Below, in pieces: positions 24,582 through 43,135 of a DNA stretch of 64,000 nucleotides (position 1 is the first letter of the stretch; every line of letters begins with the position of its first letter). Made by a program: the position numbers and the translations under genes. Origin of the DNA: Halothece sp. PCC 7418 (GTDB taxonomy: Bacteria > Cyanobacteriota > Cyanobacteriia > Cyanobacteriales > Rubidibacteraceae); the NCBI RefSeq assembly GCF_000317635.1, contig NC_019779.1, positions 2,480,001 through 2,544,000 on the forward strand, read 5' to 3'. The notes beneath the pieces are model-generated. The model was not told the origin of the DNA. It searched no databases and saw only the letters and a program-made list of their open reading frames with translations.

Positions 24582-24813
24582 AGGTGTTATTGATCAAAAT
24601 AAGCCAATCAGTACCAGTTTTCTATTTTGACAAACTCGGCATCAGATGAACCATCCAGAATTAAGAATTGTCAACCATCGTCGAAATTAGTTATTTGTTC
24701 TTGGTTCATTATTACTTGGTAGCAAAAATTGATCGAGTTGAATCACCTCTCCCATCAGAAATAGGCTTGAGAAGATTACTTTTTGTTAAGCTGAAAGCGG
24801 GAAATTATTCATT

Positions 24814-24984
24814 ATGGCATCAAAAATGAAAAAGATTATCTGCTGCTTAACTAAACCATTGCGTCTTGCTGCTGGCTTAGTCTTTCTTCTCTTAGGAACA
24901 ATTCCTACCGTTTTAGTTCCTGGAATTGGTCTATTTCTGGGCTTACCGTTTCTCTTAATCGGTGGCGCGTTAGTCTGCTGTTAA
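24814..24984 (+). CDS. Small hydrophobic protein, 56 residues
   Basis: An ATG at 24814 opens a 56-codon frame to TAA 24984. The product has a short basic N-terminus (MASKMKKIICCLTKPLR) and one long Gly/Leu-rich hydrophobic stretch, roughly residues 18-54, with a PG turn that may make it two helices. It ends in CC. Composition and the following terminator support a real gene. No named family recognised. Confidence 0.5.
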   Translation: MASKMKKIICCLTKPLRLAAGLVFLLLGTIPTVLVPGIGLFLGLPFLLIGGALVCC

Positions 24985-24999
24985 AAACTTAACTCATCT

Positions 25000-25040
25000 C
25001 ACTCTGAGAGAGAATTTAACCTTCTTTCTCAGAGTTTTTC
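25000..25040. terminator. Terminator between convergent genes
   Basis: ACTCTGAGA pairs with TCTCAGAGT around a GAGAATTTAACCTTCT loop, followed by TTTTT on the plus strand. It ends the small hydrophobic protein gene and lies just past the stop of the minus-strand pentapeptide gene. Confidence 0.8.
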
Positions 25041-25046
25041 CCATTT

Positions 25047-25817
25047 CTAGAAGAAGAAACGCATCAGCAGAGATCCAACCGTTGTAAACAGGCGATTGAG
25101 ACCGCCACCACCACCGTTACTGTCTCGCGGTTGACTAGCAATTTCCACAGCTTTCATAAATTGTTGCGAGGCTTGAACGCCAATTTCATTTTCTTGTTGT
25201 GTAAACAATTCCAGTGCAATTTCTGCATCTTGGGTTGCGCCAACTTGATCTCCTAGACGATAACGAGCAACCCCTCTTCCCAAGTAGGCTGCTGCATATT
25301 CAGGATCGAGACGAATAGCAAGATTACAGTATTCTAAAGCAGCTTCATAGTTTCCCGCCTCGGCTTCTGCTGCAGCGAGTTTATAAAATTGTTTCGCAGA
25401 ACTGGCTGAGGTCGGAACACCGATCGCGCCCCGAATATAAGCAGTTTCCAACGTTGTATTTTCCAATTGGGCGTTATTGAGATAAGCCTTTCGCAGATCG
25501 GTTTGATTGAGAATTGCACCTGTTAAATTCGCCCCAGTTAAGTTCGCCCCATGTAAAGACGCTCCCGTCAGGTTCGCCCCCCTTAAGTCAGCCCCCGTTA
25601 AATTCGCTCGACTCAGGTTTGCATTTGTCAAGTTCGCCCCTTGCAGTTGTGCTCCTGCTAACTCAGCCCTCACTAACCCCGCGTTAACCAAGTTACAATG
25701 TTGGCAAGTTTGGGTAGAGAGCAATTGATTCAGATCCGTAAGATTTTCTGCAAGTGCAACGGAGGGAGAAAGAAGCACTGTCAGGAAAGTAGCAGTGGTA
25801 GCGGTACGCAAAGACAT
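25047..25817 (-). CDS. Exported pentapeptide-repeat protein with TPR motifs
   Basis: The 256-residue protein begins with a signal peptide (TATFLTVLLSPSVALA). Next comes a CQHC motif, then about 15 A(N/D)L-type pentapeptide repeats (ANLTGADLRGANLTGAS and on, residues about 45-130) forming a right-handed beta helix, and then two TPR units (about 143-215). The C-terminus is Gly-rich and ends in LLMRFFF, an outer-membrane-like final Phe, though no barrel is evident. The localisation is probably periplasmic or lumenal. Function unknown; TPR and pentapeptide scaffolds usually bind proteins. Confidence 0.85.
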   Translation of the reverse strand: MSLRTATTATFLTVLLSPSVALAENLTDLNQLLSTQTCQHCNLVNAGLVRAELAGAQLQGANLTNANLSRANLTGADLRGANLTGASLHGANLTGANLTGAILNQTDLRKAYLNNAQLENTTLETAYIRGAIGVPTSASSAKQFYKLAAAEAEAGNYEAALEYCNLAIRLDPEYAAAYLGRGVARYRLGDQVGATQDAEIALELFTQQENEIGVQASQQFMKAVEIASQPRDSNGGGGGLNRLFTTVGSLLMRFFF

Positions 25818-25879
25818 AAGATTTATTAAGTTGTGTTGACATCTGAAAGAGGGAAGTTATCTTCCCCCATGAGTTTTTC

Positions 25880-28480
25880 CTATTTGCTATCTGATTGTTG
25901 CGCTTCCAACTTAGCTAAACGACTCATTAACTCTTGATTCTCCTGCTTCAAGCGATCAAATTCCTCTCGTAATTCCTTGACTGCTTTATCTGATCCAAGG
26001 TTTCCTTGAACCGTTTTTACCGCTTCTTCCGCCATGCGACGCACTCGTCCATCTGGAGTTTGGTCAGCAAGGGTCTGCAATATGGAAATCGCTTGAGAGG
26101 TTTGCATTTGTTTTAATGCAGTCACAACCGAGACTTGAGTGAGGAAGAAACTTTCTCCCGAAAGCGCGTCTAACTGTTCTAAAATTGCTTCTAGTTGGGC
26201 TTGTTCTTGACCTGTTGAAATTGTTCCTAATGCTCGAATCGCAGCCAAACGCAAGGGTTGCGGAATTCCAGCATAAGTATAAGGTAAAATCATGCCCATA
26301 GCAGTTTCAGAGGTTTTCATCTCCGAGAGTCCGCCAATAATTCCTCCGCGAACGACTTCATTCCAACCTGCGCGGTTTTCTAGCCCTTGACGGAACAAAT
26401 CAATCACTTCCGCTTCTTTCTCTTTAAGATTTCCCGTCGCCATTTTACCTAACATTCGGAAAGCAACCGCTTCTGTATAGTAACTGGGATCGCCTTCCTG
26501 TGCGATTAGTTTGACTGCTTGATAACTTTCTTCGGTTTTAAAGTTGGCTAACCCTTCTAATATGGTTCGGCGTACTTTCGGGTGTTCATCACTTAAGCCG
26601 TTGATCAATTCAGGAATGGCTTGCTGTAACTTAATTTTTCCTAACTGTTTCGCGACTTCTAAACGCACTCCCCAAAACGGATCTTGAGTCAGGCTTTCCG
26701 CCAAGGCTTTAATCACCTCTAAACCGCCTTTTTTCCCCAGTGCTTCTGCTGCATAAATGCGAGAAGTGACATCTGGATCATATTTTAATTGGGTTTTGAG
26801 TTCTTCGGTAGGATATTCTAAGGTGACGGTTTTGAGGTAATAGTTCCCTTGGTCAAAGCTGATGAACTGGGGTTGTTGCGGTAATGGGAAATAAAAATTA
26901 TGTTCTTTCTCATGGAGATGTAAAGACATAGTTTCAAAACACACTTCTCCATTGTCAGAAACATAGCCAAAACCAACGGGAATCTTAAGATCAAATAACT
27001 CATTTTCAGTTACATCTTTATCGGTTTTTCCTTGGGTTTGGGTGACAGTCAGTTTGGCGAGGTTATCCTGTGCATCCCAACTGTAGCTCACTTTAAAGTC
27101 GGGATGTCCGCCACGGAAGACATATTGGTCAAATAATGGAGAGAGATTTTTTCCCGTTACTTCATCGATCGCGCGGAGTAAATCAACGGTTTCTACGGTG
27201 CGATGGGCGTTTTTCTGGACAAAGTTATGAATCGCTTGGGTAAAGGCTTCTTCTCCCAGTTCCCCGCGAATCATGTGATAGACACACGCGCCTTTTTCAT
27301 ACAGATGGCGATCATACAGTTCAATGGCTTCCCGATAAATATTCGTGACAATCGGACGACGGTAGCGAGAGGAGTCTTCATTGAGATAACTTCTGGCTTC
27401 GTTCAGAATATAGTAAGCAGCGTCATCTTGACTATATTCGTGGTCAGTCCACAGCACTTCCGAATAAGAAGCCATTCCTTCTTTAATCCAAGCGTGAGAC
27501 CAATGTTTGATGACTAATAAGTCTCCAAACCACTGATGGGCGAGTTCGTGGGCGACTAAGGTTTCTGAGCGTTGTTTGTCTAATCTGGCGCGATCGTCTA
27601 ACAAGCAACGGTCAGTGAGTAGCGTTGTGGAAGTATTTTCCATTCCCCCAAAGATGAAGTCAGCCACACAAACTTGGGCATATTTGGGGTAAGGATAGGC
27701 ATAACCAAACTGTTGTGAGAAAAACTCAATCATTTGGGGGGTTTTTCCCATGGTGCGTTTCGCATCATCTTCCCGTCCTTTCTCCACATAATACTCGACA
27801 GGGATATCCTTCCATTGATCCTCAATCTTGGCAAAATCTCCCACCGCCAAAGTCATCAAATAAGTGGGATGAACTTGATTTTGTCGCCAGTGATAAATTG
27901 TATTTTCCCCTTTCTCTTCCGTAGCGACTAACTCGCCATTGGAAACTGCAACATAAGGTTTAGGAACTTCTACTCGGATTTCTGAAGTCGCCAGTTGTCC
28001 AGGATAGTCAAAACAGGGAAACCAGAAGCGAGAGTCTTCATCTTCCCCTTGTGTCCAAACTTGGGTGGGTTTATCGGGATAATCTTTGTCGGGTTGAATA
28101 AAATAGAGTCCTCGTTGGGGATGATCAACCCGATAGTGAATCACTAAATCAATGGGGTCAAAGGTTGTGGGTTGTAGCAGTTGGATTTGTAGCTGTTTCC
28201 CATCGTAGTGAAAGGGTTGACTGACTGACTTGATCTGAACACTTTCGATGGTTAAATCTTCCGCATCAAGAGTAAGATGGGTTAATCCTGACTGAACTGG
28301 CTTGAGAGTAATCGTGCTACTTCCCCGAAAAGACTGGTTCGGAATATCTAAAACCAAATCCAAGAAAATATGTTGGACATTTCCTGGACGATCTGGGGTG
28401 TAGTGAGGTTTCGCACCAGGAAGAATAAATGATTTGCGTCCGTTTTCTTCAGTATCAAAGAGGAAATAGTTATATTTCAT
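25880..28480 (-). CDS. M1 family aminopeptidase with HEAT-like repeats
   Basis: The 866-residue metallopeptidase has the GGMEN exopeptidase motif at 278-282 and the zinc site HELAH at 311-315 with the third ligand Glu334 (WIKEG). Residues about 560-830 are HEAT-like helical repeats (EVIKALAESLTQDPFWGVR, AIPELINGLSDEHPKVRR), replacing the usual C-terminal domain. The protein closes with a coiled coil (KELREEFDRLKQENQELMSR). No signal peptide, so cytosolic. It should trim N-terminal residues from peptides; the coiled coil suggests oligomerisation. Start ATG. Confidence 0.92.
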   Translation of the reverse strand: MKYNYFLFDTEENGRKSFILPGAKPHYTPDRPGNVQHIFLDLVLDIPNQSFRGSSTITLKPVQSGLTHLTLDAEDLTIESVQIKSVSQPFHYDGKQLQIQLLQPTTFDPIDLVIHYRVDHPQRGLYFIQPDKDYPDKPTQVWTQGEDEDSRFWFPCFDYPGQLATSEIRVEVPKPYVAVSNGELVATEEKGENTIYHWRQNQVHPTYLMTLAVGDFAKIEDQWKDIPVEYYVEKGREDDAKRTMGKTPQMIEFFSQQFGYAYPYPKYAQVCVADFIFGGMENTSTTLLTDRCLLDDRARLDKQRSETLVAHELAHQWFGDLLVIKHWSHAWIKEGMASYSEVLWTDHEYSQDDAAYYILNEARSYLNEDSSRYRRPIVTNIYREAIELYDRHLYEKGACVYHMIRGELGEEAFTQAIHNFVQKNAHRTVETVDLLRAIDEVTGKNLSPLFDQYVFRGGHPDFKVSYSWDAQDNLAKLTVTQTQGKTDKDVTENELFDLKIPVGFGYVSDNGEVCFETMSLHLHEKEHNFYFPLPQQPQFISFDQGNYYLKTVTLEYPTEELKTQLKYDPDVTSRIYAAEALGKKGGLEVIKALAESLTQDPFWGVRLEVAKQLGKIKLQQAIPELINGLSDEHPKVRRTILEGLANFKTEESYQAVKLIAQEGDPSYYTEAVAFRMLGKMATGNLKEKEAEVIDLFRQGLENRAGWNEVVRGGIIGGLSEMKTSETAMGMILPYTYAGIPQPLRLAAIRALGTISTGQEQAQLEAILEQLDALSGESFFLTQVSVVTALKQMQTSQAISILQTLADQTPDGRVRRMAEEAVKTVQGNLGSDKAVKELREEFDRLKQENQELMSRLAKLEAQQSDSK

Positions 28481-28700
28481 CGCTAAGGCTTGAGAGGTTA
28501 GGCTATTTCCCTCTAGGGTAGCGTTAGAAGTCTTCGTTCATCGAGGGCAATTGCTAGCAAACTACTCTAGCACGAGAAGGCGTAATCTTTGATGACTACT
28601 TAACGATGTTTCCACAGTTTGAACACTCTTGAGAGGTGTAGTCAATTAAAATAAAATGGAAAAATGGATCTGTTTTCAATCTGAAAATCAACTGCTTTTC

Positions 28701-29489
28701 ATGACTGCTGTTACTTCTCGCAAAATTCCTTCCCTCATCAAAAAATACTTAATGGCAATCACAGGCTTGGGAATGGTCATTTTTGTTTTTGGACATTTGC
28801 TAGGGAACTTACAAATCTTCTTATCCCCTCAAGAGATTAACGAGTATGCGTATTTCCTCCATGACATCCTTCCAGGGGAGATTCTGTGGGGACTTCGCAT
28901 TGGACTGTTATTCATGGTCGGCGTTCACATCTGGATGGCGATTCTACTAAAACTTGAAAATAAAGCTGCGCGTCCCATTGGCTATGTCAATAATCAATGG
29001 ATTCAAGCCAACAGTGCATCTCGTTACATGACCCACAGTGGCGGTATTGTGCTGATCTACATTATTTTTCATCTTCTCCACTTTACTGTTCAAACTGTAC
29101 ACCCCGCATTTGGACAACTCACTTATTTCCTCGGAAATCATCTCACTCAAGATGTGTACGCCATGATGATCTATGGCTTTTCCAGTCAGTTCTGGTATGT
29201 ATCGCTTTTTTATATCATTGGTATGGGATTATTATGCTGGCATTTATCTCATGGTGCAAGTAGTCTGTTTCAAAGTTTAGGCTTACGAAATGAGCGCACC
29301 CGCTATTGGTTAAATCGCGTCGCTTTGGTTTATAGCATTATTGTTTTTATTGGTTTTGCGTCGATTCCTTCTTTAGTTTTGGTTTCTGAAACAACAGATA
29401 TTCAAGTTGTCCAAGCAAAAACGGTTTTAACGCAAATTCAAGATTGGGATGGGAAGGAAACAATTACTATTGATTACAGTGACCAGTGA
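28701..29489 (+). CDS. sdhC: Succinate dehydrogenase/fumarate reductase cytochrome b subunit
   Basis: The product (262 residues from ATG 28701) is a b558-type membrane anchor with five transmembrane helices. GLGMVIFVFGHLLGNLQIF and VGVHIWMAILLKLE contain candidate haem-ligand histidines, and FWYVSLFYIIGMGLLCWHLSHG is a further helix. It anchors SdhA/SdhB and passes electrons to quinone. An ATG at 28656 would add 15 residues. The stop TGA (29487-29489) lies inside a CCAGTGA heptamer, so the last residues (DYSDQ) are repeat-derived. sdhA begins 27 bp later. Confidence 0.92.
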   Translation: MTAVTSRKIPSLIKKYLMAITGLGMVIFVFGHLLGNLQIFLSPQEINEYAYFLHDILPGEILWGLRIGLLFMVGVHIWMAILLKLENKAARPIGYVNNQWIQANSASRYMTHSGGIVLIYIIFHLLHFTVQTVHPAFGQLTYFLGNHLTQDVYAMMIYGFSSQFWYVSLFYIIGMGLLCWHLSHGASSLFQSLGLRNERTRYWLNRVALVYSIIVFIGFASIPSLVLVSETTDIQVVQAKTVLTQIQDWDGKETITIDYSDQ

Positions 29490-29516
29490 CCAAAGAACCA
29501 AGAACCAAGAACAAAA
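29476..29516 (+). repeat. Two CAGTGAC heptamers plus GAACCAAGAACC leader
   Basis: ACAGTGACCAGTGACC is followed by AAAGAACCAAGAACCAAGAA right up to the sdhA ATG. The heptamer supplies the sdhC stop codon, and the A-rich part replaces a Shine-Dalgarno. Confidence 0.75.
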
Positions 29517-31505
<1,989 letters not shown>

Positions 31506-31524
31506 AAAGAACTTCAACATAGTT

Positions 31525-31755
31525 TTACTCTTGTAATAATTCAAAGAATCTTTCTTTGTCGATGCCAGTATCTTGAATCATTCCTAAAAGCGTTCCTTTT
31601 TTGAGGTCTTTTCCAGAATGAATGGGAACAACTACTCTGCGTCCTTGAGCATTCTTGTAGATAGCATGACTCCCCTTTTGACGATCTAGATAAAACTCTA
31701 GTTTCTTCAAAATTTTGATAAACTCTTTAGCGGTAACACTGGGTTCATTGCTCAT
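31525..31755 (-). CDS. hicA: HicA family mRNA interferase toxin
   Basis: The 76-residue protein has the HicA double-stranded-RNA-binding-like fold, with the catalytic His in RQKGSHAIYKN (GSHxxY motif, about residue 31) and the typical VVVPIHSGKDLKKGTL strand. It should cleave mRNA when free of its antitoxin. It overlaps hicB by 4 bp (ATGA), so translation is coupled. The antitoxin gene comes first, the opposite of the E. coli order. Confidence 0.92.
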   Translation of the reverse strand: MSNEPSVTAKEFIKILKKLEFYLDRQKGSHAIYKNAQGRRVVVPIHSGKDLKKGTLLGMIQDTGIDKERFFELLQE

Positions 31756-31991
31756 AAAGAAACAGTTAAAGGCTTAACAATCAAATCTTCTTGAGGAATT
31801 GGTTGATTATCCGCCATTAAACTTTCCAAATATAATTCAATTGCTTCTGTTATATTCTCAATTGTTTCTTCATAGGTATCTCCTTGAGAATGACACCCTT
31901 TTAGCATTGGACAAAAAGCGTGATACCCTCCGTCCTCTTCTTTTTCTAAAATAACGGTATAATTATAAACCTGCTTGCTTTTATTTTCCAT
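31752..31991 (-). CDS. hicB: HicB family antitoxin
   Basis: This 79-residue protein has the HicB partial RNase H-like domain (YTVILEKEEDGGYHAFCPML, KGCHSQGDTYEETIENITEA). It lacks an obvious C-terminal DNA-binding helix, so autoregulation may use another element or be weak. AAAGGAT lies directly before the ATG. It pairs with the downstream overlapping hicA in the insert between sdhA and sdhB. Confidence 0.9.
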   Translation of the reverse strand: MENKSKQVYNYTVILEKEEDGGYHAFCPMLKGCHSQGDTYEETIENITEAIELYLESLMADNQPIPQEDLIVKPLTVSL

Positions 31992-32237
31992 ATCCTTTAA
32001 ACACTTGTTTTGTCCTGTTATCTATATTAGCGATTAGCGCAATGTCGTGAAGGGATTAGAGATCGCGATCGCGCTACTCTAGTAAGGATAAAAAGGTAAG
32101 CCCAGAAAGTGTAGCAGTGTTTTTTGTATTTCATATAACTTTGCGCTTATTACTGTAACTTTACTTTTCCTTTTCTCGTCTGCTGACCATTAGCGAGCTT
32201 AAATCGTGGCGCGATTGATCTGAACAATCGCCTAGCT

Positions 32238-33032
32238 TTGCGCGATCGCGCTGCACCAGTCCTGGAAAAAACAGAAAAATATCCTATCTTGGAAGTAAGA
32301 AGAGAAGAAACACCAAAAGATTTCATGCAGCTAGAAGATTACTTTGAAGCGGGGGCTGCGGATTATGTGACTAAACCATTCCAAACGCCAGAATTGTTAG
32401 CTCGCATTAAAACTCATCTGAAATTGATTCAACTGCAAGAGGAACTTAGAGAAACTGTGAAACAGTTAGAAGCAGCGAATCAACAATTAACTGAATTATC
32501 CCAGAAAGATGGACTGACAAAAATTGCAAATCGTCGCTATTTCGATCATTATCTCCAACAAAAATGGGAACAGTTAAGACGAGAAGAAAAACCTCTGTCG
32601 GTGATTTTAATTGATATTGATTATTTCAAACAGTACAACGATTATTATGGACATCTCCAAGGGGATGAGTGCTTAAAAACCGTTGCTCAGACTTTATCAC
32701 AAGCGATTAAACGCTCAACTGATTTGGTAGCTCGTTAAGGCGGAGAAGAATTTGTACTGGTGCTTCCTGATAGCGATGAATCAGGGGCAGTGACCATCAC
32801 GCAGGAAATTCAAAGCGCGATCGCGCAACAAAATATTTCTCATGGTTCACATCTTGCCAGCGATCAGGTGACGGTGAGCTTAGGGATAGCAACTGTGATT
32901 CCCACCGTCGAAACCTCTTGGAAAGCGTTAGTAACACTTGCCGATGGGGCGCTGTATCAGGCAAAAACACAGGGGCGCGATCGATATTTTCTCGAATCTG
33001 AAATTGGGAAACGCCAAGAAAAACAACTTTGA
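32238..33032 (+). pseudogene. Response regulator diguanylate cyclase, truncated and with an internal stop
   Basis: The frame reads as the end of a receiver domain (YFEAGAADYVTKPFQTPELL), a coiled-coil linker, and a GGDEF domain (KDGLTKIANRRYFDHYL, LIDIDYFKQYNDYYGH). A TAA stop at 32736-32738 falls exactly where the residue before GGEEF should be. Translation in the same frame then continues GGEEFVLVLPDSDESG to 33032. The receiver's N-terminal half, including its phosphorylation Asp, is missing. So there are two lesions: an N-terminal deletion and one nonsense codon. No other stop or frameshift is seen, which suggests recent decay. Confidence 0.85.
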
Positions 33033-33626
33033 TCAAAATTATTTTTTTCCTAGTTAGCAAGAAAAAAATCAACATCCCCTGTCGCCTTGGGCTTAATTAT
33101 CAGTGCAGCTTATATAAAACTTTTTTTTAATAAGACTTTTCTTTCAATCAACCCTCTTAATCTTTCTTAAACAAAAAAATAAAGAGAGAATTCTTGACGA
33201 AATTGCGAGGTTTCAGGTATGCTAAGGAAAATAATAATCCAAAGGGAGCTTTTGTCTCAATTTCAAAAAATAAGCAAAAAATCTGATTCTTTCGTCGCTA
33301 GACCCAATTAAGCTGTCAAGTTTTTTGGAACGAGTTGCATTGATTTTTGTAACTAGGTTTGAATCTTTGTTAAGCAGGGTTGACAGATATCTGATGATAT
33401 GCAGGGAAGAAATGAGGCGAAGGCTTTTCCCAGAACAACATCATAGCATTTCTCATTAGTTAAAATATAGACCAATGGGGTGAAACCCAATCCAAAAGCT
33501 ATTCTGAAGACGGGGAGAGCATAAACAATAAGAAATGATTAACTTCTGATTGGGTGGGCAGGGCAAACCCTACGATTGCTCATTTATCTTCAGCGCTTAA
33601 CTCAGGGAATTAGAGGGCGCGATCGT
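33033..33626. other. Non-coding AT-rich stretch in the sdhA-sdhB insert
   Basis: No supported coding frame. It holds a promoter-like pair at 33194-33223 and a copy of the phrase GTGGGCAGGGCAAACCCTACG near 33555, echoed as GTAGGGTGGGCAAGGCAAAC near 35010. The stretch looks like decayed DNA. Confidence 0.5.
33194..33223 (+). promoter_or_regulatory. Sigma70-type promoter candidate without an obvious gene
   Basis: TTGACG at 33194-33199 and TATGCT at 33218-33223 are separated by 18 bp. No coding frame starts nearby, so it would drive either the decayed sdhA fragment or a small RNA, or be non-functional. Confidence 0.35.
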
Positions 33627-33740
33627 CATTATGCGTTTTTTGGCGTTTGGGAATATCAAGGCGAAGCAAAAGAACCAACTTTACAAAAAGAGTCTTTGGT
33701 TTATGAGGAGGTTAAATTTTCAACGCGATCGTATAAGTAA
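33627..33740 (+). pseudogene. Relic of the 3' end of a second sdhA
   Basis: The 114 bp translate to 37 residues plus TAA and match the last 37 residues of SdhA with about four differences (start HYAFFGVWEYQG, end VKFSTRSYK). Several DNA changes are silent, which suggests the copy was once under selection. Nothing upstream continues the gene. Confidence 0.85.
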
Positions 33741-33834
33741 AAATATTGGAATTTCAATGGTTGATATAAAATAGTCTCTTATAGTTAGAAATATTAATTC
33801 AATTGACAGAAGATGATGTGTGTATTGGCTCTAG

Positions 33835-34233
33835 ATGAGTTCGACAAATATTCTGATTGAAATCGGATCAGGAATAGTTGCAGGTTTATTTGTTAACCTA
33901 TCAAGTCTGATTATTGCATTGATTTGGGTTGTCACTTTTTTCGGAATAACGTCCGTATTATCTCGCCAAGAGAACAAAACTGAAATGACTGATACTGAAG
34001 GCTGTTTCCAAGCATTAAAATCTATCTTTGTTTTAGTATTAGGTTATTTTAGTGCTCTCATTGGTGGTTACTTACTCTCATTTTGGCTTGCCATTAAAAT
34101 TGGCAATTCTAAATTTTACTTTGGCAGTTATTATGATTTCTCTGTACTCATTTTTAGTTTAATTCCTGCTTGGATTTCTTTTATTCAATTTCAGAATGAT
34201 CGAAAGCATAAATTAGGGAGTGAGAGCAAATGA
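33835..34233 (+). CDS. Small membrane protein of unknown function
   Basis: The 132-residue product has three or four hydrophobic segments (IVAGLFVNLSSLIIALIWVV, SIFVLVLGYFSALIGGYLL, FSVLIFSLIPAWISFIQF) separated by short polar loops. It ends in a basic tail. I recognise no family. It lies between two decayed sdhA fragments in the insert, is AT-rich, and has no clear Shine-Dalgarno. It may be accessory or horizontally acquired. Confidence 0.5.
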   Translation: MSSTNILIEIGSGIVAGLFVNLSSLIIALIWVVTFFGITSVLSRQENKTEMTDTEGCFQALKSIFVLVLGYFSALIGGYLLSFWLAIKIGNSKFYFGSYYDFSVLIFSLIPAWISFIQFQNDRKHKLGSESK

Positions 34234-34517
34234 CTCTGATATCCTCGTAACATTAAAGCGCGATCGCGCTGCAAATTGGAAAAGGTGAATGATTCCCCGA
34301 TGATATTCTTCAAGCCCCAAGGGATTACTCTAAAAGTTTCCAAAAAATAAGGGATGTCTGTTCTGGACATTCCCATCATTTGATTATGAATAGTGACTTT
34401 CCCAAGTTCAAGAATTTGATCGGTTAATTTAGAGGGAAGTGAACTAAATACATTCAGTCTTGAGTCACTATGAAATGAATCGATCAATCGTTATTAGATA
34501 CCGATTATCAGGTGAGA
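34234..34517. other. Gap with a decayed internal sdhA fragment
   Basis: Apart from the sdhA-like fragment at about 34256-34336, I see no coding or RNA feature in this gap. Confidence 0.5.
34256..34336 (+). pseudogene. Decayed internal fragment of a second sdhA
   Basis: The frame reads AIALQIGKGE, a TGA stop, then FPDDILQAPRDYSK. This corresponds to [24 protein letters not shown] of the intact SdhA (near 30416-30485). The order of the two fragments is reversed relative to the intact gene (3' end at 33.6 kb, internal part at 34.26 kb), so the copy was rearranged. Confidence 0.6.
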
Positions 34518-34694
34518 CTACCCCTCAGGAGATTCTCCATTGGATTCTTCTTCAGGCATCTCAGAATCTTCAGACTCTTCTGTTTGTGTTTCCTCTTGTT
34601 CGGGAGGAGGGACTTCTTCTGTTGTTGGGGGATTACAAGCTGTCAAAGCAAATAGTGAGCCAATTAGAAATAAAGCAATTAATTGAGATTTCAT
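34518..34694 (-). CDS. Small acidic lipoprotein
   Basis: From the ATG at 34694 the product has 58 residues: a lipoprotein signal (MKSQLIALFLIGSLFALTAC, lipobox LTAC) then a Pro/Glu-rich acidic tail (PPTTEEVPPPEQEE, TEESEDSEMPEEES). The Shine-Dalgarno AAGGAG lies 6 bases before this ATG and so decides the start; an upstream TTG would include it. The mature tail is probably disordered in the periplasm. Function unknown. Confidence 0.7.
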   Translation of the reverse strand: MKSQLIALFLIGSLFALTACNPPTTEEVPPPEQEETQTEESEDSEMPEEESNGESPEG

Positions 34695-35086
34695 AAGCTG
34701 CTCCTTCAATATTTAATTGTGCAGTCTTTTCTTTCTGATCAATCTAAAGACATCAGACAAATCGAAGCTATTACTGATTAGAATACATTCATTTTAACTT
34801 ACTCTTAATCCATTTTTCTGGTGTGACTTTTGAGGATATTCTATGTGCTAAAAGTATGATTGAATAGCATACAAAATCTTTCTTGAGAACAATCGATTAT
34901 CACAAAAAAATACTCCGCCGTGAGAGGACGGAGCTTGCGGACGACCGTTGGTCACAGATTACACCTTCCTAAACGGAAGGGGCCTGCTGTAACCGTTGGT
35001 CAAGTTGTCGTAGGGTGGGCAAGGCAAACCCCACAAGGTAGCGCGATCGCGCTACTCTAGAATTTGATAGTCTAATCTAGTCAACG
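34695..35086. other. Gap with hairpins of probable IS200/IS605-like relic before sdhB
   Basis: No coding frame. CTCCG (34913-34917) pairs with CGGAG (34929-34933) and CCTTCC (34964-34969) with GGAAGG (34975-34980). The 10-mer CCGTTGGTCA occurs at 34945 and 34993. Such stacked hairpins resemble the ends of TnpB-type elements, but no transposase or TnpB frame remains. GCGATCGCGCTACTCTAG near 35042 is also present near 32066. Confidence 0.35.
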
Positions 35087-35848
35087 ATGCACTTCACATT
35101 AAACATTTGGCGACAACCCAACCCCAACACCAATGGAGAAATGGTAAGCTATCAACTCGATCAGGTGTCTCCCGATAGCTCTTTTTTAGAGATGTTAGAC
35201 CTCCTCAATGAGAAACTTTTAGAGCAAGGAGAAGACCCTGTCGCCTTTGATCATGACTGTCGCGAAGGAATTTGTGGCAGTTGTGCGATGACAATTAATG
35301 GTATTCCTCCACAAAAGGAAACCACGGCTTGTCAGCTTTATATGCGCCATTTTAATGATGGGGATACGATTACGATTGAACCTTGGCGGGCAAAACCCTT
35401 TCCTGTGATTAAAGATCTGGTTGTCGATCGCGCTGCATTTGATGAGTTGATTCAAGCAGGAGGCTTTATTACCGCCCGTACAGGAAGTGCGCCCGAAGCC
35501 AATGAAACACCAATTCCGAAAGCGGTTGCTGATGAGGCGATGGATGCAGCAGCTTGTATTGCTTGTGGAGCCTGTGTGGCCACTTGTAAAAATGCCTCTG
35601 CAATGTTGTTTGTGGGAGCGAAAAATGCACACTTAAATCGCCTTCCTCAAGGACAACCCGAGAAAGAGCAACGGGTGCTGAATATGATAGAAACAATGGA
35701 TCGCTTAGGATTTGGCAACTGTAGTAATTTTGGAGAATGCCAAGCGGTTTGTCCCAAAGGCATTACACTAGATGTGATTGCTAAGTTAAATCGAGATTAC
35801 GCGATCGCGCAAGTCCGTCGTTTCCTGTCTCCGAAAACCCAACGTTGA
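35087..35848 (+). CDS. sdhB: Succinate dehydrogenase/fumarate reductase iron-sulfur subunit
   Basis: The 253-residue protein carries the 2Fe-2S site CREGICGSC (Cys58, 63, 66, plus Cys82) and two C-terminal cluster sets, [11 protein letters not shown] and [14 protein letters not shown]. It passes electrons from the SdhA flavin to the b-type anchor. It fits the same b558-type enzyme as sdhC-sdhA, although a 3.6-kb accessory region now separates them. In many cyanobacteria sdhB is unlinked anyway. Start ATG; no strong Shine-Dalgarno. Confidence 0.95.
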
Positions 35849-35913
35849 GTTGACAAGATGACGAAAATATGCAAACTTATGAGCATATTTTCCCAGAATG
35901 AAGGGTGTGGGGT

Positions 35914-36576
35914 ATGGTGACAAGTGATAGAGATCGGAAAACTTCCCTTGGTGGGATTAACCTCCAGTTAACAAAACAACGTCTCAAACTAAAGTTACTG
36001 TTCTTGGGTCTTGCTAGCATTAGTGTTCTGACAATCTTGTCGATTTTGAGTCAACCGCCAGTCAAGGCTCAAAGCATGGCTCGGAATAATGTACAAACGG
36101 GACAATGGTTGAACGCTTCGTTTCCTGTAGAAAATTTCCAAACTTATACCTCTCCCTTTGGCTATCGTCAGTCCCCCACCACGGGAAGAACCCAGTTTCA
36201 TCGCGGACTCGATTTAGCAGCCCCCTTGGGGAGTTATATTCGGAACTGGTGGGGGGGAACAGTCAGCCAACTCTCAGATCATACAGCCTGCGGAACAATG
36301 ATTGTGATTCAATCTGGAGAGTGGGAACATATCTATTGCCATCTCAAAGGACGGGTGGAGAAAACCAGTACTGGGCTAGTTTTAGTGGATCGAGAAGGAG
36401 GAATCCGCTTAAAACAAGGTCAGCCAGTCCCCACAGGGACTCGCATTGGGCGTGTTGGCATGACAGGACGGACAACTGGACCTCATTTACACTGGGGGTT
36501 AAAGTATGCTGGAGAGTATATTGATCCAGGATTAGTGTTGCGACAAATGTATCAAGAACAAACCGCTCGGCAATAA
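35914..36576 (+). CDS. M23 family metallopeptidase (LytM-like)
   Basis: The product (about 220 residues) has an N-terminal membrane or signal segment (LLFLGLASISVLTILSILSQPPVKAQ) and a C-terminal peptidase M23 domain. The zinc-site motifs are complete: FHRGLDLAAP (HxxxD) and GPHLHWGL (HxH), with HIYCHL between. It should cleave peptidoglycan cross-links in the periplasm, or activate amidases. Starts GTG 35905, ATG 35914 and GTG 35917 are all possible; ATG is my choice. sdhB ends 65 bp upstream. Confidence 0.9.
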   Translation: MVTSDRDRKTSLGGINLQLTKQRLKLKLLFLGLASISVLTILSILSQPPVKAQSMARNNVQTGQWLNASFPVENFQTYTSPFGYRQSPTTGRTQFHRGLDLAAPLGSYIRNWWGGTVSQLSDHTACGTMIVIQSGEWEHIYCHLKGRVEKTSTGLVLVDREGGIRLKQGQPVPTGTRIGRVGMTGRTTGPHLHWGLKYAGEYIDPGLVLRQMYQEQTARQ

Positions 36577-36642
36577 TCGAGGCTCGATCGCGCTTCTTGG
36601 TAAAATTAGGATCAATTCTAACTTCTCTGTCTGAAACCAGCC

Positions 36643-38292
36643 ATGCTTCGCTCTTTACGCCACCGATCGCTGCACGTTTTGTTCTCCACAGCGAGCTTGT
36701 TGTTGTGTTCCCTTCCCGCCCAAGCAGCCGAGAATGTTTATGTTTCTCTCGGACTACTGGAGGTTTCTGTTTCTGTAGAGTCCCTAGAAAAATATGCCGA
36801 AGACGGAACGATTACGCAAGAGTTAGCAGCTTATACCCGCTACTTGAATGCAGAACAAAAACAGAAGCTACAGGAAGTTTTAACGGTTCCTGCAGAATTA
36901 GATACCATCGCGATCGCGCAATTTTTATATTCTCCTCAAGGGGAAGCGGTTCTCAGACAATTTGGAGATATTATTGACACCAAAGCCAGACAAGGCGGAT
37001 TCTATGCCATACGCTCGGCTCTCATCTTAGCAGCAGCCGATCCAGAAGGGTTAACCTTACTCAACTTCCTCCAACATTTTCCCACGGACGGCTTGCGTAT
37101 TAATTCTGGGCGAGGCTTAGAACTGGTCAATCAACTCGGCGAGTTTATCAAACAAACCGACCAAACCGTTGCTCTGATTGAACAGCAGGCTTTAGAAACA
37201 TCTCTCGAAGCTGAGAGCACCAAAGCCACCGACTTTTCTCGTAATCTTCAATCTCAGGGAACGTTTCCTTACCGCCGTCAAAGTATTGATTTAGTTGATC
37301 GCCAGCGCGACCCCTTACAAGAAGTCGTCACAGGCTTGACCACTCGGGAGATTCCCACCTATCTTTATCTTCCGCAAACAGCGACTTTTGAACGTCCCCC
37401 TTTAATTATTATTTCTCACGGACTGGGTTCAGATCGCAGTACCTATTCTTATCTGGCAGAACATCTCGCCTCTTACGGTTTTGCTGTTGCGACTATTGAA
37501 CATCCTGGGAGTAATGCCCGTCAACTACAATCTCTGTTAATGGGACTGAAAAATGAAGTGAGCCCCCCTTCCGAATTAATTAATCGTCCCAAAGATATTA
37601 AATTTTTACTGGACTACTTAGAACGAAATTACACCACAAAAATCAATGTCAATCAAGTGGGAATTTTGGGACAATCTTATGGCGCATATACCAGCCTCGC
37701 TGTCGGAGGTGCAACCATTAACTATGAGCAAGTGGCTCAACAGTGCCAAACCCAAGAAACAGCCACAGTCTTGAACTTTTCCGTCTTACTACAATGTCAA
37801 TTACTCCGTTTACCCCGAAAAGACTATAACTTTAATGACTCTAGAATCAAGGCAGTTTTTGCCATTAATCCTTTGACCAGCATCATTTTTGGTCAAGACG
37901 GGCTAGAAAAAATTAATGTTCCCACTTTACTGGTGACAGGGAGTGCAGATACAGTCACCCCTGCTTTACCAGAACAAATTCGTCCGTTTGCTTGGTTAGA
38001 AACGCCAGAAAAATATTTGGTCTTATTGAAACGAGGAACTCATTTTTCTACCCTTGCTGAAGGAACAGAAGAGGGGATTCCAGTTCCGAAAGAAGCCATT
38101 GGCCCCGATCCCGCGATCGCGCAAAATTATATTCGCGCCCTCAGCACTGCTTTTTTCAAAACCCATCTGGCAAATGAAACCAACTATAAACCCTATCTCA
38201 GTACAGAATACACCGACGAAATCAGCCGTTATCCCATGCCTCTGTTTTTACTCGATTCTCTCCCAGATCAGGTAATCGATAATTCTGATTAA
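36643..38292 (+). CDS. Exported alpha/beta hydrolase with DUF1400 domain
   Basis: The 549-residue protein has a signal peptide (VLFSTASLLLCSLPAQA), an N-terminal DUF1400 helical domain (about residues 30-150) and an alpha/beta hydrolase domain. That domain has the oxyanion region IISHGLGSDRSTY, the nucleophile elbow GQSYGAY, the acid in LVTGSADTVTPALP and the histidine in LKRGTHFS. The whole triad is present. This is a cyanobacterial family related to platelet-activating-factor acetylhydrolases and chlorophyllase-like enzymes. The substrate is unknown, probably a lipid ester in the periplasm. Confidence 0.88.
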   Translation: MLRSLRHRSLHVLFSTASLLLCSLPAQAAENVYVSLGLLEVSVSVESLEKYAEDGTITQELAAYTRYLNAEQKQKLQEVLTVPAELDTIAIAQFLYSPQGEAVLRQFGDIIDTKARQGGFYAIRSALILAAADPEGLTLLNFLQHFPTDGLRINSGRGLELVNQLGEFIKQTDQTVALIEQQALETSLEAESTKATDFSRNLQSQGTFPYRRQSIDLVDRQRDPLQEVVTGLTTREIPTYLYLPQTATFERPPLIIISHGLGSDRSTYSYLAEHLASYGFAVATIEHPGSNARQLQSLLMGLKNEVSPPSELINRPKDIKFLLDYLERNYTTKINVNQVGILGQSYGAYTSLAVGGATINYEQVAQQCQTQETATVLNFSVLLQCQLLRLPRKDYNFNDSRIKAVFAINPLTSIIFGQDGLEKINVPTLLVTGSADTVTPALPEQIRPFAWLETPEKYLVLLKRGTHFSTLAEGTEEGIPVPKEAIGPDPAIAQNYIRALSTAFFKTHLANETNYKPYLSTEYTDEISRYPMPLFLLDSLPDQVIDNSD

Positions 38293-38359
38293 TTTTTCGG
38301 CAGTCATTCATCATTCGTCATTCATTCTCCCCCTCATCTGTCGCAAACTTTAAAACAGA

Positions 38360-39442
38360 TCAAATCAAATTAATCTTAAGTCCCCGTTGCTTCATCATCG
38401 CTTCAAACTGAGGGGTGGTCACAGCCTGTTCAATTGACCAAACACCTGGTTGGATCATCTCTTGGTTGAGTAGTAATTGGGCAACACTTCCTGCTCCCAT
38501 CCCAGCAGCGATCGCGGTATGATGATGAGAAAAATTGAGTCGGTAACGTTGTTTTTGTCCCCCTTGCCATCCCGTTACATCTACAGCAACAGCAATACCG
38601 ACACCACTCACCCGATCCGTCACTCTTGCCATGCCAAGGCTAAGCCAAGATAATCCTTCCCTCACAAGGGGATTTTTCAAAACAGAATGGGGGACGCGAT
38701 GGGCAACCAGACTGGTTAAATCATTGTAAAAACTAGGAAGAGAAGCAAACTTAGTGACAACCGTATTCACTGGAAAAGATTGAGTGAGGGTATAAGTTTC
38801 AGCAACATCAAACCAATAAACCTCTGCTTCCCCGTATTGTTCAAATTGGACTGTCTCTGGTTCACTATAGGGAATAATCTCTTGCCATTTGCCATTAATC
38901 CAAGCGGAAAAGGGAGATTGTAGCCCTAAAAAAGTGGTTTGCATTACCGTTAATCCCGCCCCTCCTGATCCCGCGACTAAGTAATTCAAATGAATAGATT
39001 CCACTTGATCCAGTGCTTCTACTCCTTTTTTCGCCATCAAGTTAGAAATTCCAGGAAAGACCCCTGTATGCAAAATCGCAGTCACTCCTGCTTGTTGGGC
39101 TGCTTGATGATACTCTGTCGCCTGAAAATAAAATGAACGATGATCGCTGACATCAATATAATTGATTCCTGCTTCGATACAGGTCTTTAAAACCCGACCA
39201 TCTCGATGGTGAAAGGGACCAGCACAATGCACCACTAAATCAAAATTAGAAATCAGGGGTTTAAGTTGATCAAAATTGTTCAAATCAAACGGTAAAAAAG
39301 GAAAATCTTGGTTATAAGAAGATTGGAGTCCAGCTACAGTGACATTTGCTTGCGTCTGCGCCTGAATATCCTCTGCAACACGATGACCAATAGATCCAGT
39401 TCCACCAATGATCAATACCTTTTTTGTCACGACTTCCCCCAC
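38360..39442 (-). CDS. Saccharopine dehydrogenase-like NAD(P)-binding protein
   Basis: The 360-residue protein opens with a Rossmann fold (VLIIGGGTGSIGHRVAEDI-like, residues 9-25) and has LVVHCAGPFHHRDGRVLKTC and ILHTGVFPGISNLMA, typical of the Sacchrp_dh_NADP family. The reaction is not deducible; relatives act on amino-acid, lipid or carotenoid substrates. Starts are GTG only; GTG 39430 has GGGGGAAG just before it and may be the true start, four codons inside the frame given. It is convergent with the hydrolase gene. Confidence 0.8.
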   Translation of the reverse strand: MGEVVTKKVLIIGGTGSIGHRVAEDIQAQTQANVTVAGLQSSYNQDFPFLPFDLNNFDQLKPLISNFDLVVHCAGPFHHRDGRVLKTCIEAGINYIDVSDHRSFYFQATEYHQAAQQAGVTAILHTGVFPGISNLMAKKGVEALDQVESIHLNYLVAGSGGAGLTVMQTTFLGLQSPFSAWINGKWQEIIPYSEPETVQFEQYGEAEVYWFDVAETYTLTQSFPVNTVVTKFASLPSFYNDLTSLVAHRVPHSVLKNPLVREGLSWLSLGMARVTDRVSGVGIAVAVDVTGWQGGQKQRYRLNFSHHHTAIAAGMGAGSVAQLLLNQEMIQPGVWSIEQAVTTPQFEAMMKQRGLKINLI

Positions 39443-39574
39443 GACAACGATTTAAAATAAAGATTTGCTAAGGTTAAAAAGAAGAAATTTGTAATATTAC
39501 TCAACAATTATCGGCTTACTTCCCGAGTCATCAAAGCAGCATCTGGATTAAACGCACCAATTACCGAGATTATC

Positions 39575-40273
39575 ATGCCGACTACTTATTTTCCTGGTCA
39601 ATCACAATTATCCTTGCAAGGGCAAGATACGCCAACCCTGAAAGCAATCTGGGAAACGATTAATGCAGATAGTTGCCCTCATTACTATAACTTCCATTTG
39701 CACACAATTTGTTCTGATGGACAGTTAGACCCCAAAGCCCTAATTCAACAGGCTTTAGAGATCAACTTGCAAGGACTCGCGATTACTGATCATCATACCG
39801 TTAAGGGTTATCGGATGGCTCGTCAGTATCTTGAAAGCTATGGCAATTTTTCTTCTTTCCCTCAACTTTGGACAGGCGTAGAAATCACCTCCATCCTCAT
39901 GGAAACTGAAGTTCATATTTTAGGGTATGGCTTTAATCCGGAACATCCGACCATACTTCCCTATTTAAGGGGACAGAGTCCGAAGGGAGTGGCTGCGAGT
40001 GCTAAAAATGTTATCAACGCCATTCATGAAGCAGACGGATTAGTCGTTTTAGCGCATCCTGAACGTTATCGCCGTCCCGCAAAAGAGTTAATCCCAGCAG
40101 GAGTCGCCCTCGGGATTGATGGTGTGGAAACCTATTATGCTTATAAAAATACCATCCCCTGGCGACCCAGTGCAGAGGAAACGATGGAAGTGAAAGCATT
40201 AAGCCAACAGTATGATCTGTTTAATACTTGTGGGACAGACACTCATGGGTTGGATTTATTGCAACGAGTTTAA
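39575..40273 (+). CDS. PHP domain phosphoesterase-like protein
   Basis: The 232-residue protein has the PHP metal motifs NFHLHTICSDGQLDP (residues about 39-53), ITDHHTVKGY, LAHPERYRRP and CGTDTHG. This makes it a trinuclear-metal phosphoesterase of the YciV/RNase AM type or a histidinol-phosphatase-like enzyme. It lacks the C-terminal insert of larger relatives. The substrate is probably a nucleotide or RNA end. Stop at 40273 within a stretch leading to a HIP1 site and a hairpin. Confidence 0.85.
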   Translation: MPTTYFPGQSQLSLQGQDTPTLKAIWETINADSCPHYYNFHLHTICSDGQLDPKALIQQALEINLQGLAITDHHTVKGYRMARQYLESYGNFSSFPQLWTGVEITSILMETEVHILGYGFNPEHPTILPYLRGQSPKGVAASAKNVINAIHEADGLVVLAHPERYRRPAKELIPAGVALGIDGVETYYAYKNTIPWRPSAEETMEVKALSQQYDLFNTCGTDTHGLDLLQRV

Positions 40274-40306
40274 AGGCGCGATCGCGCAGTTTTTCTGAAA
40301 AGAAAA

Positions 40307-40331
40307 GGGAGGATTGTTTTCCTCCCTAATC
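40307..40331 (+). terminator. Hairpin terminator after the PHP gene
   Basis: GGGAGG (40307-40312) pairs with CCTCCC (40321-40326) around ATTGTTTT, followed by TAATC and then TTGTATTT. The T-tract is weak. Confidence 0.55.
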
Positions 40332-40339
40332 TTGTATTT

Positions 40340-40677
40340 AGCCTTCTTGAACTCTCCACGGATTAAAATCGCGTGGATTCCAATCGAAACCACTCAATGG
40401 ATTAAAATCACAAATCGAGTGTTAGAAAGGAGTCTCCCGAAGCCGGAGCGAAGGTGAGGATGGCACGTTCAAAGATGCCCTACAGACCTTGGCTAAACGA
40501 AAGTCTAGCTGTATCTCTACTTTTTTTAATAAGCCTGACGGGTTTTTCACCATCTTTGGGCTTCGTCTATTATCGCAGACACAGAGGACTAAAGTCCTCC
40601 AAGGCTCATTCATGAGGGGCTGTCGTCGGAACTTGGTTTCGACGCTTGTAAGCCCCGTCCATCGGTTTCAAACCGAT
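40340..40677. mobile_element. IS200/IS605-like end relic downstream of cydB
   Basis: No coding frame. The palindromes GAGGACTAAAGTCCTC (near 40586) and ATCGGTTTCAAACCGAT (40661-40677) are set in GTAAGCCCCGTCC context, resembling the right-end hairpins of TnpB-type elements. Two near copies of GGATTAAAATC occur at its left. The last hairpin overlaps the cydB stop codon. No TnpA or TnpB remains, so this is a tentative relic. Confidence 0.4.
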
Positions 40678-41702
40678 GACTTTCTGACTGGCTCTGTGTA
40701 ATTACTACTTCTAACTTTACCGCGAAAGACCACGTACTGATAGATGTTATATGCCAACATAATCGGAATTAAAAAACCAATAAATGTCAGCATAAACACC
40801 AAAGCACTGGGGTCAGCAGCAGCTTGATAGACGGTAATGGAACGGGGAATAATGTAGGGAAAGACAATAATCCCTAAACCTAAAAAAGACAGCAAGAAGA
40901 CTAAAATTGTCCAAACAAAGGGCGCACGTTCTTGTTGTTGATTAAGGCTGCGTAACAGTTGCCAGATGAAAAATGCTCCTAAAACAGGAATGGTGGCAAA
41001 AATGTAAAGAAAGGGGGGATCAAAGAGGCGCGATCGCGCTTCTTCTAAGAAAATGGGCGTGGTAATGGTGATTAAGACTGCACCGATTAAGGTGGTAACT
41101 GCAGCAATTTTAGCTGTGCGATAGTGGGTTTGTTGCAACGCCCCTTCCGTTTTCATCACCAAATAAGTCGATCCACTTAAGACATACCCTTGAATCAAAG
41201 TTAGGGTAACGAGAATCGAGGGTAAACTTAACCAATCCCAAATTCCGCCAATAAAGTGTCCGCTTTCATCGACATTAATTCCGATTAAGACACCGCCTAA
41301 AGCAAAGCCTTGTCCGACGGTGGCGAGTAAACTCCCTAAACCAAACGCAGCATTCCAGAAAAATTTATTCTCAGAATGTTCGCGAAATTCAAACGCAACC
41401 GCACGGAAAATAAAGCCAAAGACCATCAGCCAAATCGGGATGTATAACGCGCTTAAAATCGTGCTGTACGCTAAGGGATACGCCCCAAATAACGCGCCTC
41501 CCATCAAGACAAGCCAGGTTTCGTTTGCATCCCAAACGTTACTTAAACTGGTCATTAATAAGCCACGGCGTTCCTCGTTAGAAGAGGTAATGGAAAGAAT
41601 CCCTACCCCTAAGTCAAAGCCATCGAGGGTGACATAAAGGAAGAGAAATAACGCCAAAATGACGAACCAAACTTGCGGTAAAAAATAAGCGAGAGTTTCC
41701 AT
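40668..41702 (-). CDS. cydB: Cytochrome bd quinol oxidase subunit II
   Basis: The 344-residue membrane protein has eight or nine hydrophobic helices and typical CydB signatures: LDGFDLGVGIL near the N-terminus, then SLSNVWDANETWLVLMGGALFGAYP. It forms the bd oxidase with CydA, reducing oxygen with plastoquinol or ubiquinol-type quinones at low oxygen. Its stop (40668-40670) lies within the terminal hairpin of an IS-like relic, so about ten C-terminal residues (YTEPVRKSSV) may derive from that insertion. cydA ends 2 bp upstream. Confidence 0.95.
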   Translation of the reverse strand: METLAYFLPQVWFVILALFLFLYVTLDGFDLGVGILSITSSNEERRGLLMTSLSNVWDANETWLVLMGGALFGAYPLAYSTILSALYIPIWLMVFGFIFRAVAFEFREHSENKFFWNAAFGLGSLLATVGQGFALGGVLIGINVDESGHFIGGIWDWLSLPSILVTLTLIQGYVLSGSTYLVMKTEGALQQTHYRTAKIAAVTTLIGAVLITITTPIFLEEARSRLFDPPFLYIFATIPVLGAFFIWQLLRSLNQQQERAPFVWTILVFLLSFLGLGIIVFPYIIPRSITVYQAAADPSALVFMLTFIGFLIPIMLAYNIYQYVVFRGKVRSSNYTEPVRKSSV

Positions 41703-41704
41703 AA

Positions 41705-43135
41705 TTAATTTTCCACGGGACGGCGGTCTGGAGTATGTTCAACGGGTGTCGGTTCTAAGGTTTCTTTTGGAATCGGTAAGTCAAAGTTGGGCCCTTGGCG
41801 GATAATCCGACTCCCGAAATAGAGGGCGGAGATAAACAGAAGCGTATAGACTCCTGTAAAGGCTGCTAGAGAGGTGAGAATCTCTTGGGCGGGTAAATTG
41901 GAAGCAGCATCAACGGTGCGAATTTCTTCATACATCGTCCACGGTTGTCGTCCGACACAACGGACAATCCAACCCGATTCAATGGCGATATATCCTAAAG
42001 GGGCGGAAAATATCCAACCCAACATTAACCATTTTTGATTGGCAATTTGTGCGGGTGCGAGTTTTCCTCGTAACCATTGGATGACGGTAATTCCCATTAA
42101 TCCCGCAAGGAAGAAACCAATCCCCACCATGATCCGAAATGAGTAGTAAATCAATCCCACCATTTTCGGACGATCTTCAGGTTTCCATTCTTTTAAGCCT
42201 TTGACGGGTTCCGATAAATTGGGTTTTAATTCGAGGATATAGCCTAAACCATTGGGAATTGAAATTTCCCAGTCATTCCGTTCTGCTTTTGAGTTCGGAA
42301 TCGCCACTAAACTCCAATCTGCGGGTTGTCCGCCAGGGGCGGTTTCCCATTGCGCTTCCATGGCTGCCATTTTTGTGGGCTGTTTATGATAGACTTGTTC
42401 CCCACTGAGGTGTCCGATATAGATTTGTAAGGGCGCGACCGCGATCGCGACAGCAAGAATAATCTTAAAGGATCGGGTAAAGAACTGTTGATAACGTTGA
42501 TTTCGGTTCAGGATATACCAAGCACTAATTCCCCCAATCACAAATAGAGAAGTCTCCAGTGTGGCAAAGAACATATGCAGTACACTATTGACCATGAAGG
42601 GATTAAAAATAGCTTGGAAATAATCGGTGACAACAAATTTTCCATCCACTAATTCGCCACCAGCAGGGGTTTGTAACCAAGAATTGGCGGTAATAATCCA
42701 AAAGGTCGATAAGTTCGCGCCAAAAGCGACCATAATTGTTCCCATGTAGTGAATGACAGGAGGAACACGACCCCAACCAAACAGCATAATTCCGAGAAAC
42801 CCCGCTTCTAGCATGAACGCCATTGAGGCTTCAAACCCAAGAATACTCCCGAAAAAGTCACCTACTGCTTCGGAAAATGGGGCCCAGTTTGTGCCAAACT
42901 GAAATTCCATGGGAACGCCACTGGCGACTCCAATCCCGAAATTTAGAACATACAGCTTTGACCAAAACCGAGCATGATAGTAGTAGTCTGGGTTGCGGGT
43001 TTTGAGCCACATTCCCTCAACAACCACTAAATAAATTGACATTCCAGTTGTCAACACGGGCCATAACATATGAAAAATTGCAGTTATGGCAAATTGCATC
43101 CGTGAGAGCGAAACTGAGTCTGATAAAAAATCCAT
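41705..43135 (-). CDS. cydA: Cytochrome bd quinol oxidase subunit I
   Basis: The 476-residue subunit starts DFLSDSVSLSRMQFAITAIF. The haem b595 ligand is expected in AIFHMLWP. The family motif CVGRQPWTMYEEIRTVDA is near the C-terminus. The Q-loop is short, so it is of the cyanide-insensitive CIO/bd-II-like type instead of the long E. coli form. I chose ATG 43135 because GAGAGG lies a few bases upstream; a TTG at 43153 also keeps the frame. It is divergent from the hemerythrin array, with 246 bp between starts. Confidence 0.94.
   Translation of the reverse strand: MDFLSDSVSLSRMQFAITAIFHMLWPVLTTGMSIYLVVVEGMWLKTRNPDYYYHARFWSKLYVLNFGIGVASGVPMEFQFGTNWAPFSEAVGDFFGSILGFEASMAFMLEAGFLGIMLFGWGRVPPVIHYMGTIMVAFGANLSTFWIITANSWLQTPAGGELVDGKFVVTDYFQAIFNPFMVNSVLHMFFATLETSLFVIGGISAWYILNRNQRYQQFFTRSFKIILAVAIAVAPLQIYIGHLSGEQVYHKQPTKMAAMEAQWETAPGGQPADWSLVAIPNSKAERNDWEISIPNGLGYILELKPNLSEPVKGLKEWKPEDRPKMVGLIYYSFRIMVGIGFFLAGLMGITVIQWLRGKLAPAQIANQKWLMLGWIFSAPLGYIAIESGWIVRCVGRQPWTMYEEIRTVDAASNLPAQEILTSLAAFTGVYTLLFISALYFGSRIIRQGPNFDLPIPKETLEPTPVEHTPDRRPVEN

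Follow-up and report, generated by a model that had tools for sequence, protein, structure and literature searches.

How the genes of one succinate dehydrogenase (SDH) came to be separated by an interval containing copies of parts of one of them is the question raised by the sdh locus of Halothece sp. PCC 7418. In the 64,000-nucleotide stretch analyzed here (the window, G000:C1:2480001-2544000, where G000 is the source genome, a single contig of 4,179,170 bases, and G000 to G005 are the genomes of the genus), sdhC and sdhA adjoin, and sdhB lies 3.6 kb downstream behind a patchwork of other pieces. A sequence-only reading of the locus had proposed duplication, rearrangement and decay around an insertion, and this general picture is supported. 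Our preferred interpretation, to which we assign a probability of about 0.62, is that small recombination events, recurring in a genus whose gene order is scrambled, left the insert as a patchwork. The locus thus provides a base-level view of an opened operon in such a genus, where pieces of toxin-antitoxin systems form a mosaic with copies of parts of neighboring genes. It looks like a well-resolved scar of genome shuffling, ordinary in kind, and not like a new kind of system; its surprising feature is a host-gene fragment whose junction is common to two relatives at different loci.

Both sdhA copies within the insert are real. Scored against sdhA, relic 1 reaches 93 and relic 2 reaches 38, far beyond the 21 obtained by the best of 200 dinucleotide shuffles, and no further sdhA piece in the interval exceeds that maximum. 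Relic 1 repeats the last 37 codons of sdhA with mostly silent changes, as had been described: in frame, 9 of the 37 codons (stop included) differ and 6 of these 9 differences are silent, compared with 20% among random single changes. Relic 2 copies an internal piece of sdhA and, when read in the sdhA frame, gives SAIALQIGKGE*FPDDILQAPRDYS against a 25-residue stretch of sdhA; the in-frame TGA is real, and the order of the relics is indeed reversed relative to sdhA. The relic 2 match begins with a HIP1 palindrome. Once this shared palindrome is removed, 36 of 53 bases still match, and in an alignment, anchored on the palindrome, of 101 HIP1 flanks from the window to the sdhA flank, relic 2 ranked first with 43/60 matches (next 28, median 15). 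Among the best 40 candidates per genome in the other five genus genomes, the only match to relic 2 was a 41-nt G002 stretch over the palindrome end; the related sdhA stretches in G005 and in G002, which match relic 2 at 71-73%, were also missing from this best-40 search. Relic 2 is more diverged than relic 1 (76% vs 91%) and may be a separate partial copy.

In G005, relic 1 recurs with this upstream junction at a different locus (contig C111, L091), where the hicA end and DUF433 start are again its neighbors. The upstream sequence, termed R, together with the first part of relic 1 (33593-33697) matches L091 6406-6302 (91%), with the remainder of relic 1 coming after a 92-nt element situated between two TA copies. 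This element (L091:6209-6300), which interrupts the G005 relic, has inverted ends and resembles a miniature inverted-repeat transposable element; G001 has two stretches similar to it and G005 has several. The G005 order runs from the hicA end through a DUF433 gene, which continues there and whose start matches PF04255, a DUF5615 gene, R and the sdhA tail to an iron-containing alcohol dehydrogenase-like gene, and a second R copy precedes the hicA end. On the far side of the G005 relic the flanks differ from those of G000. R itself was rejected as a dispersed repeat, as it has just three occurrences at up to 3 mismatches in the six genus genomes, all beside the relic 1 or hicA-DUF433 segment. 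Local tandem duplication alone was likewise set aside, given that R and relic 1 also stand upstream of the G005 dehydrogenase gene with other far-side flanks. Since relic 1 and its junction occur at another G005 locus, we consider it an older fragment that was moved or transferred, one that appears to predate the G000/G005 split or to have passed between these genomes, keeping company with toxin-antitoxin pieces. The presence of the same host-gene fragment and junction at two loci in two relatives makes movement of the segment testable. The three genes that precede the dehydrogenase gene are common to G001 and G002 (65-83% protein identity), with an IS605-type OrfB gene intervening in G002; G005 differs, and its relic site is thus rearranged. 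At this same site G000, G003 and G005 each carry something else, unlike G001/G002 and unlike one another, and the G004 contig ends inside the dehydrogenase gene.

Site comparisons over positions 5-116 of the tail, split into a 5' part of 66 and a 3' part of 46, add a further layer to the history of relic 1. Against its own sdhA the G000 relic shows 10 differences (9/66, then 1/46), and against the G005 relic it shows 15 (7/66, then 8/46); the G005 relic and the sdhA of that genome differ at 14 sites (10/66, then 4/46), and the two sdhA genes differ from each other at 13 over the tail (8, then 5). Within the 5' part, three bases are common to both relics against both sdhA copies, one of which also occurs in the G002 sdhA. 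Towards the 3' end, five sites link the G000 relic to its own sdhA and five link the G005 pair, with four of these sites identical. The simplest account, drawn from few sites, would be one old fragment with R, the 3' part of which was later homogenized within each genome.

The remaining pieces of the insert are similarly composite (see the table). HicBA is complete, its HicA and HicB domains being adjacent, and the hicBA genes, membrane open reading frame (ORF) and small lipoprotein gene reported earlier are all present, the latter two without a Pfam family. The GGDEF pseudogene of the sequence-only reading stands insofar as Pfam recognizes both GGDEF halves, in the same frame on both sides of the stop; more exactly, 32238-33032 joins a DUF433 start to a response regulator-GGDEF remnant that contains an in-frame stop, and the second half of this pseudogene belongs to the copied mnmG upstream region. 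Upstream of the G005 sdhB lies a DNA relative (77%) of the lipoprotein stretch, with related stretches on other contigs in G002 and G004, and the orphan membrane ORF matches only itself in 100 genomes. Pfam assigns no integrase or transposase family to any of the 12 insert ORFs that reach 50 aa. Within 28000-37000, the sole Rfam match at E<=1 is a hammerhead below cut-off at 36156-36214, outside the interval. A search for a plasmid source returned 32 matching plasmid records, none covering 80% of the query, the best being a 75% match of the hicB region to a Gloeothece plasmid. At 33130-33404 lies a dispersed repeat of up to ~270 bp, of which G003 has many partial copies (68-79%) and G001 and G000 have some, and another dispersed sequence at 40347-40613 has several G003 copies (best 96%).

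Table. Features of the sdh locus and its insert, in window coordinates
Feature	Position	Strand	Match or remark
sdhC, b558-family membrane subunit	28656-29489	+	TIGR02046, 148 bits, cutoff 96
sdhA, flavoprotein subunit, 662 aa, appears intact	29517-31505	+	NF005749, 1134 bits, cutoff 866; full-length relatives
Source of relic 2 inside sdhA, starts with HIP1 palindrome	30412-30483	+	matches 34258-34329
Source of relic 1 (last sdhA codons and stop)	31393-31508	+	matches 33628-33743
hicA-end block common to G005:C111, starts right after sdhA stop	31506-31549	.	L091 7225-7182, 95% over 44 nt
hicA toxin gene	31525-31755	-	PF07927
hicB antitoxin gene	31752-31991	-	PF15919
DUF433 gene start, cut off; block common to G005:C111	32266-32348	+	L091 7188-7106, 94% over 83 nt
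Response regulator-GGDEF remnant, in-frame TAA at 32736-32738	32349-33032	+	PF00990 both halves, PF00072 weak
Copy of region ending just upstream of mnmG at 1.816 Mb	32814-33538	.	92% over 727 columns; ORF there MnmG/GidA (Pfam)
R, sequence upstream of relic 1	33593-33623	+	once in G000, twice in G005
Relic 1, sdhA 3' end copy	33628-33743	+	116 nt, 91%, ends just past sdhA stop codon
Orphan ORF, membrane protein by appearance	33835-34233	+	no Pfam family
Relic 2, internal sdhA copy, in-frame TGA	34258-34329	+	72 nt, 76%
Small lipoprotein gene, LTAC lipobox by eye	34518-34709	-	no Pfam family
Dispersed repeats	34911-35041	.	many matches in G000 and other genus genomes
sdhB, iron-sulfur subunit, 253 aa, appears intact	35087-35848	+	NF005746, 403 bits, cutoff 243

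When examining the linkage of sdhA and sdhB more broadly, a same-strand downstream sdhB is found at 76 of 80 loci fetched from other bacteria, within 100 nt at 65 of them, and is absent at 4. Among 60 genomes searched, nine carry a b558-type SdhA, five from the genus (G000, G001, G002, G004, G005) together with G016, G026, G038 and G052. The two genes are adjacent in only two of these nine, G004 (where the contig ends inside sdhB) and G038. Elsewhere they are separated by 3.6 kb in G000, by ~2 kb in G002, by ~417 kb in G001 and by 1.5 Mb in G052, and they lie on separate contigs in G005, G016 and G026. Adjacency in most bacterial relatives and in one relative within the genus indicates that contiguity is probably ancestral. 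It has often been lost in cyanobacteria (7/9), and the split by itself is unremarkable. The earlier caution about the frequent unlinking of sdhB in cyanobacteria is therefore borne out in its outcome, but it concerned the native SDH, which is another family. The suggested comparison with relatives having the same arrangement without relics is answered in part by G002, where two opposite ORFs and no visible relic lie between the genes; separation of sdhA and sdhB thus does not need relics. The same operon carries another insertion in G005, with DUF4160 and DUF2442 genes between sdhC and sdhA (L083:2533-3045).

The wider gene order of the genus is strongly scrambled, in that genes adjacent in the window (24000-43900) are distant from each other or placed on separate contigs in G001, G002, G003 and G005. 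Although the sdhA DNA of G000 and G005 is ~87% identical, these neighbors are spread over many G005 contigs, which favors small recombinations that occurred repeatedly, possibly with short repeats assisting. Blocks that have relatives elsewhere make up much of the interval; they are the hicA end and DUF433 start, the mnmG upstream copy, R with the sdhA end, the internal sdhA piece, the lipoprotein stretch and the dispersed repeats. Under the patchwork interpretation, a verrucomicrobial-type sdhC-sdhA-sdhB operon would have been split downstream of sdhA, and several distinct small recombinations would have filled the space before sdhB. The 3' end of sdhA would have been copied and the copy joined to a toxin-antitoxin segment before the G000/G005 split, or the joined segment passed between the two; it would have moved at least once, and the 3' part of relic 1 would later have been homogenized with the resident sdhA, with relic 2 added as a separate partial copy. 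The insert pieces are presumably inert. From their sequences sdhC, sdhA and sdhB look intact and would still make a succinate:quinone reductase, with sdhB probably expressed separately, since the antisense hicBA genes stand between it and sdhA. In Halothece PCC 7418 the extended HIP1 is gCGCGATCGCGc (PMC4390886); this source cites evidence tying HIP1 to site-specific or illegitimate recombination and states that none ties it to homologous recombination. CGATCG lies within 10 bp of 3 of 11 borders (0.65 expected, P 0.023), the borders having been listed after looking, and HIP1 as a border marker is suggestive only.

Several observations weigh against this interpretation. Every copy of the sdhA tail stops at the stop codon and the flanks beyond differ; random breaks would not predict this, and it is hard to explain. 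Five sites in each genome, four of them common to both, are the basis for homogenization. The association of full HIP1 (GCGATCGC) with borders is weak and after the fact (2/11, P 0.067), and separate expression of sdhB finds no promoter signal, as 31400-35150 holds 10 promoter-like sites against 9.4 expected in shuffles. Furthermore, G005 is a draft in which sdhA lies 480 bp from a contig end, so that relic and sdhA may once have adjoined there, and the order of events cannot be reconstructed.

One rival explanation is that a small island integrated site-specifically at the sdhA 3' end, its own end restoring the gene and the old end being pushed to the far side. Prophage e14 integrates in the 3' end of icd in this manner and restores that gene. 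The locus resembles such cases in several respects: the 3' end of a metabolic gene is duplicated as a direct repeat beyond inserted toxin-antitoxin genes, the differences are mostly silent, and homology stops at the stop codon in all copies. However, neither the 12 insert ORFs nor the two ORFs between the G005 R copies match an integrase or transposase in Pfam, an empty site with the same flanks was not found among the genus relatives, whose gene order is scrambled, and hicA is not present downstream of the G005 sdhA. Such an island therefore seems to us improbable. We are about as doubtful of a variant in which a toxin-antitoxin islet carries the sdhA 3' end as its own end and lodges behind sdhA leaving the gene intact, R and the tail being its footprints in two genomes and HIP1 perhaps marking some borders. 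Chromosomal toxin-antitoxin cassettes provide a parallel, in that HicBA is complete in the window and the DUF433 and DUF5615 genes, which we take to be a toxin-antitoxin pair, are adjacent in G005; they differ in that DUF433 is cut off in G000 and hicA is cut off in G005.

The sequence-only reading had instead regarded both relics as remains of one second sdhA, tandem or from a relative, which once lay between sdhA and sdhB, decayed to its end and an internal piece and then swapped their order. Two sdhA pieces within one 3.6-kb interval would be consistent with this, and the silent excess in relic 1 fits former coding constraint or change on the sdhA side. Silent changes are, however, also abundant between the intact sdhA genes of G000 and G005 (190 silent and 39 replacement codons), so the excess in relic 1 needs no second gene; between the G005 relic and its own sdhA, 7 of 12 differing codons are silent. 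Several findings speak against one second gene: R and relic 1 also occur at another G005 locus, the relics have diverged unequally, no other piece of the interval scores above the shuffle maximum, and a G000 protein search with SdhA listed just sdhA, relic 1 and an L-aspartate oxidase locus. Descent from one second gene is accordingly unlikely in our view. As for chance similarity or an assembly artifact, the 51 HIP1 palindromes of the window do make chance seeds common, but the relic scores stand far above shuffles, and an independent genome also has relic 1 with its junction, which already refutes this explanation for relic 1; we give this explanation almost no credence.

The enzyme itself appears to have a foreign history. 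All three subunits pass the curated cut-offs of b558-type SdhCAB (NF005749/TIGR01811, NF005746, TIGR02046), as expected of a b558-type succinate:quinone reductase or fumarate reductase, and differ from most such systems in the distant sdhB. The window SdhA scores 248 bits against the native cyanobacterial type (NF004613, cutoff 824; a G007 protein reaches 1108), and by these family matches the window SDH belongs to another family than the native one. In a tree of 64 SdhA sequences (9 cyanobacterial and 55 of the 80 fetched loci, a set that may lack records very close to the genome of the window), the five genus sequences group together (support 100/99) and join five Verrucomicrobiota, three of them titled Puniceicoccaceae (100/97), within a larger verrucomicrobial branch; the other four cyanobacterial sequences are placed elsewhere, some on long branches. 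The best-segment identity of the window SdhA to those five, its nearest fetched relatives, is 72-75%. The native SdhA of G007 has a 77% relative in G006, and its best matches in G000-G005 and G008 reach only 37-41% (frames of ~545-570 aa). NCBIfam identifies the 39-41% proteins of G000 and G003 as L-aspartate oxidase, those of G001, G002, G004, G005 and G008 are presumably the same, and the next matches in these genomes are b558-type SdhA or other weaker ones. It thus seems that the genus exchanged its native SDH for a verrucomicrobial b558-type SdhCAB, an incidental finding that may matter more for physiology than the scar. Literature searches, covering titles and abstract openings among the papers listed, showed no account of such a replacement, which is not proof of its being unpublished. 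In G003, neither a native SDH nor sdhA or sdhB of the b558 kind was found, and this genome carries a PRK08275-type flavoprotein (NF006131).

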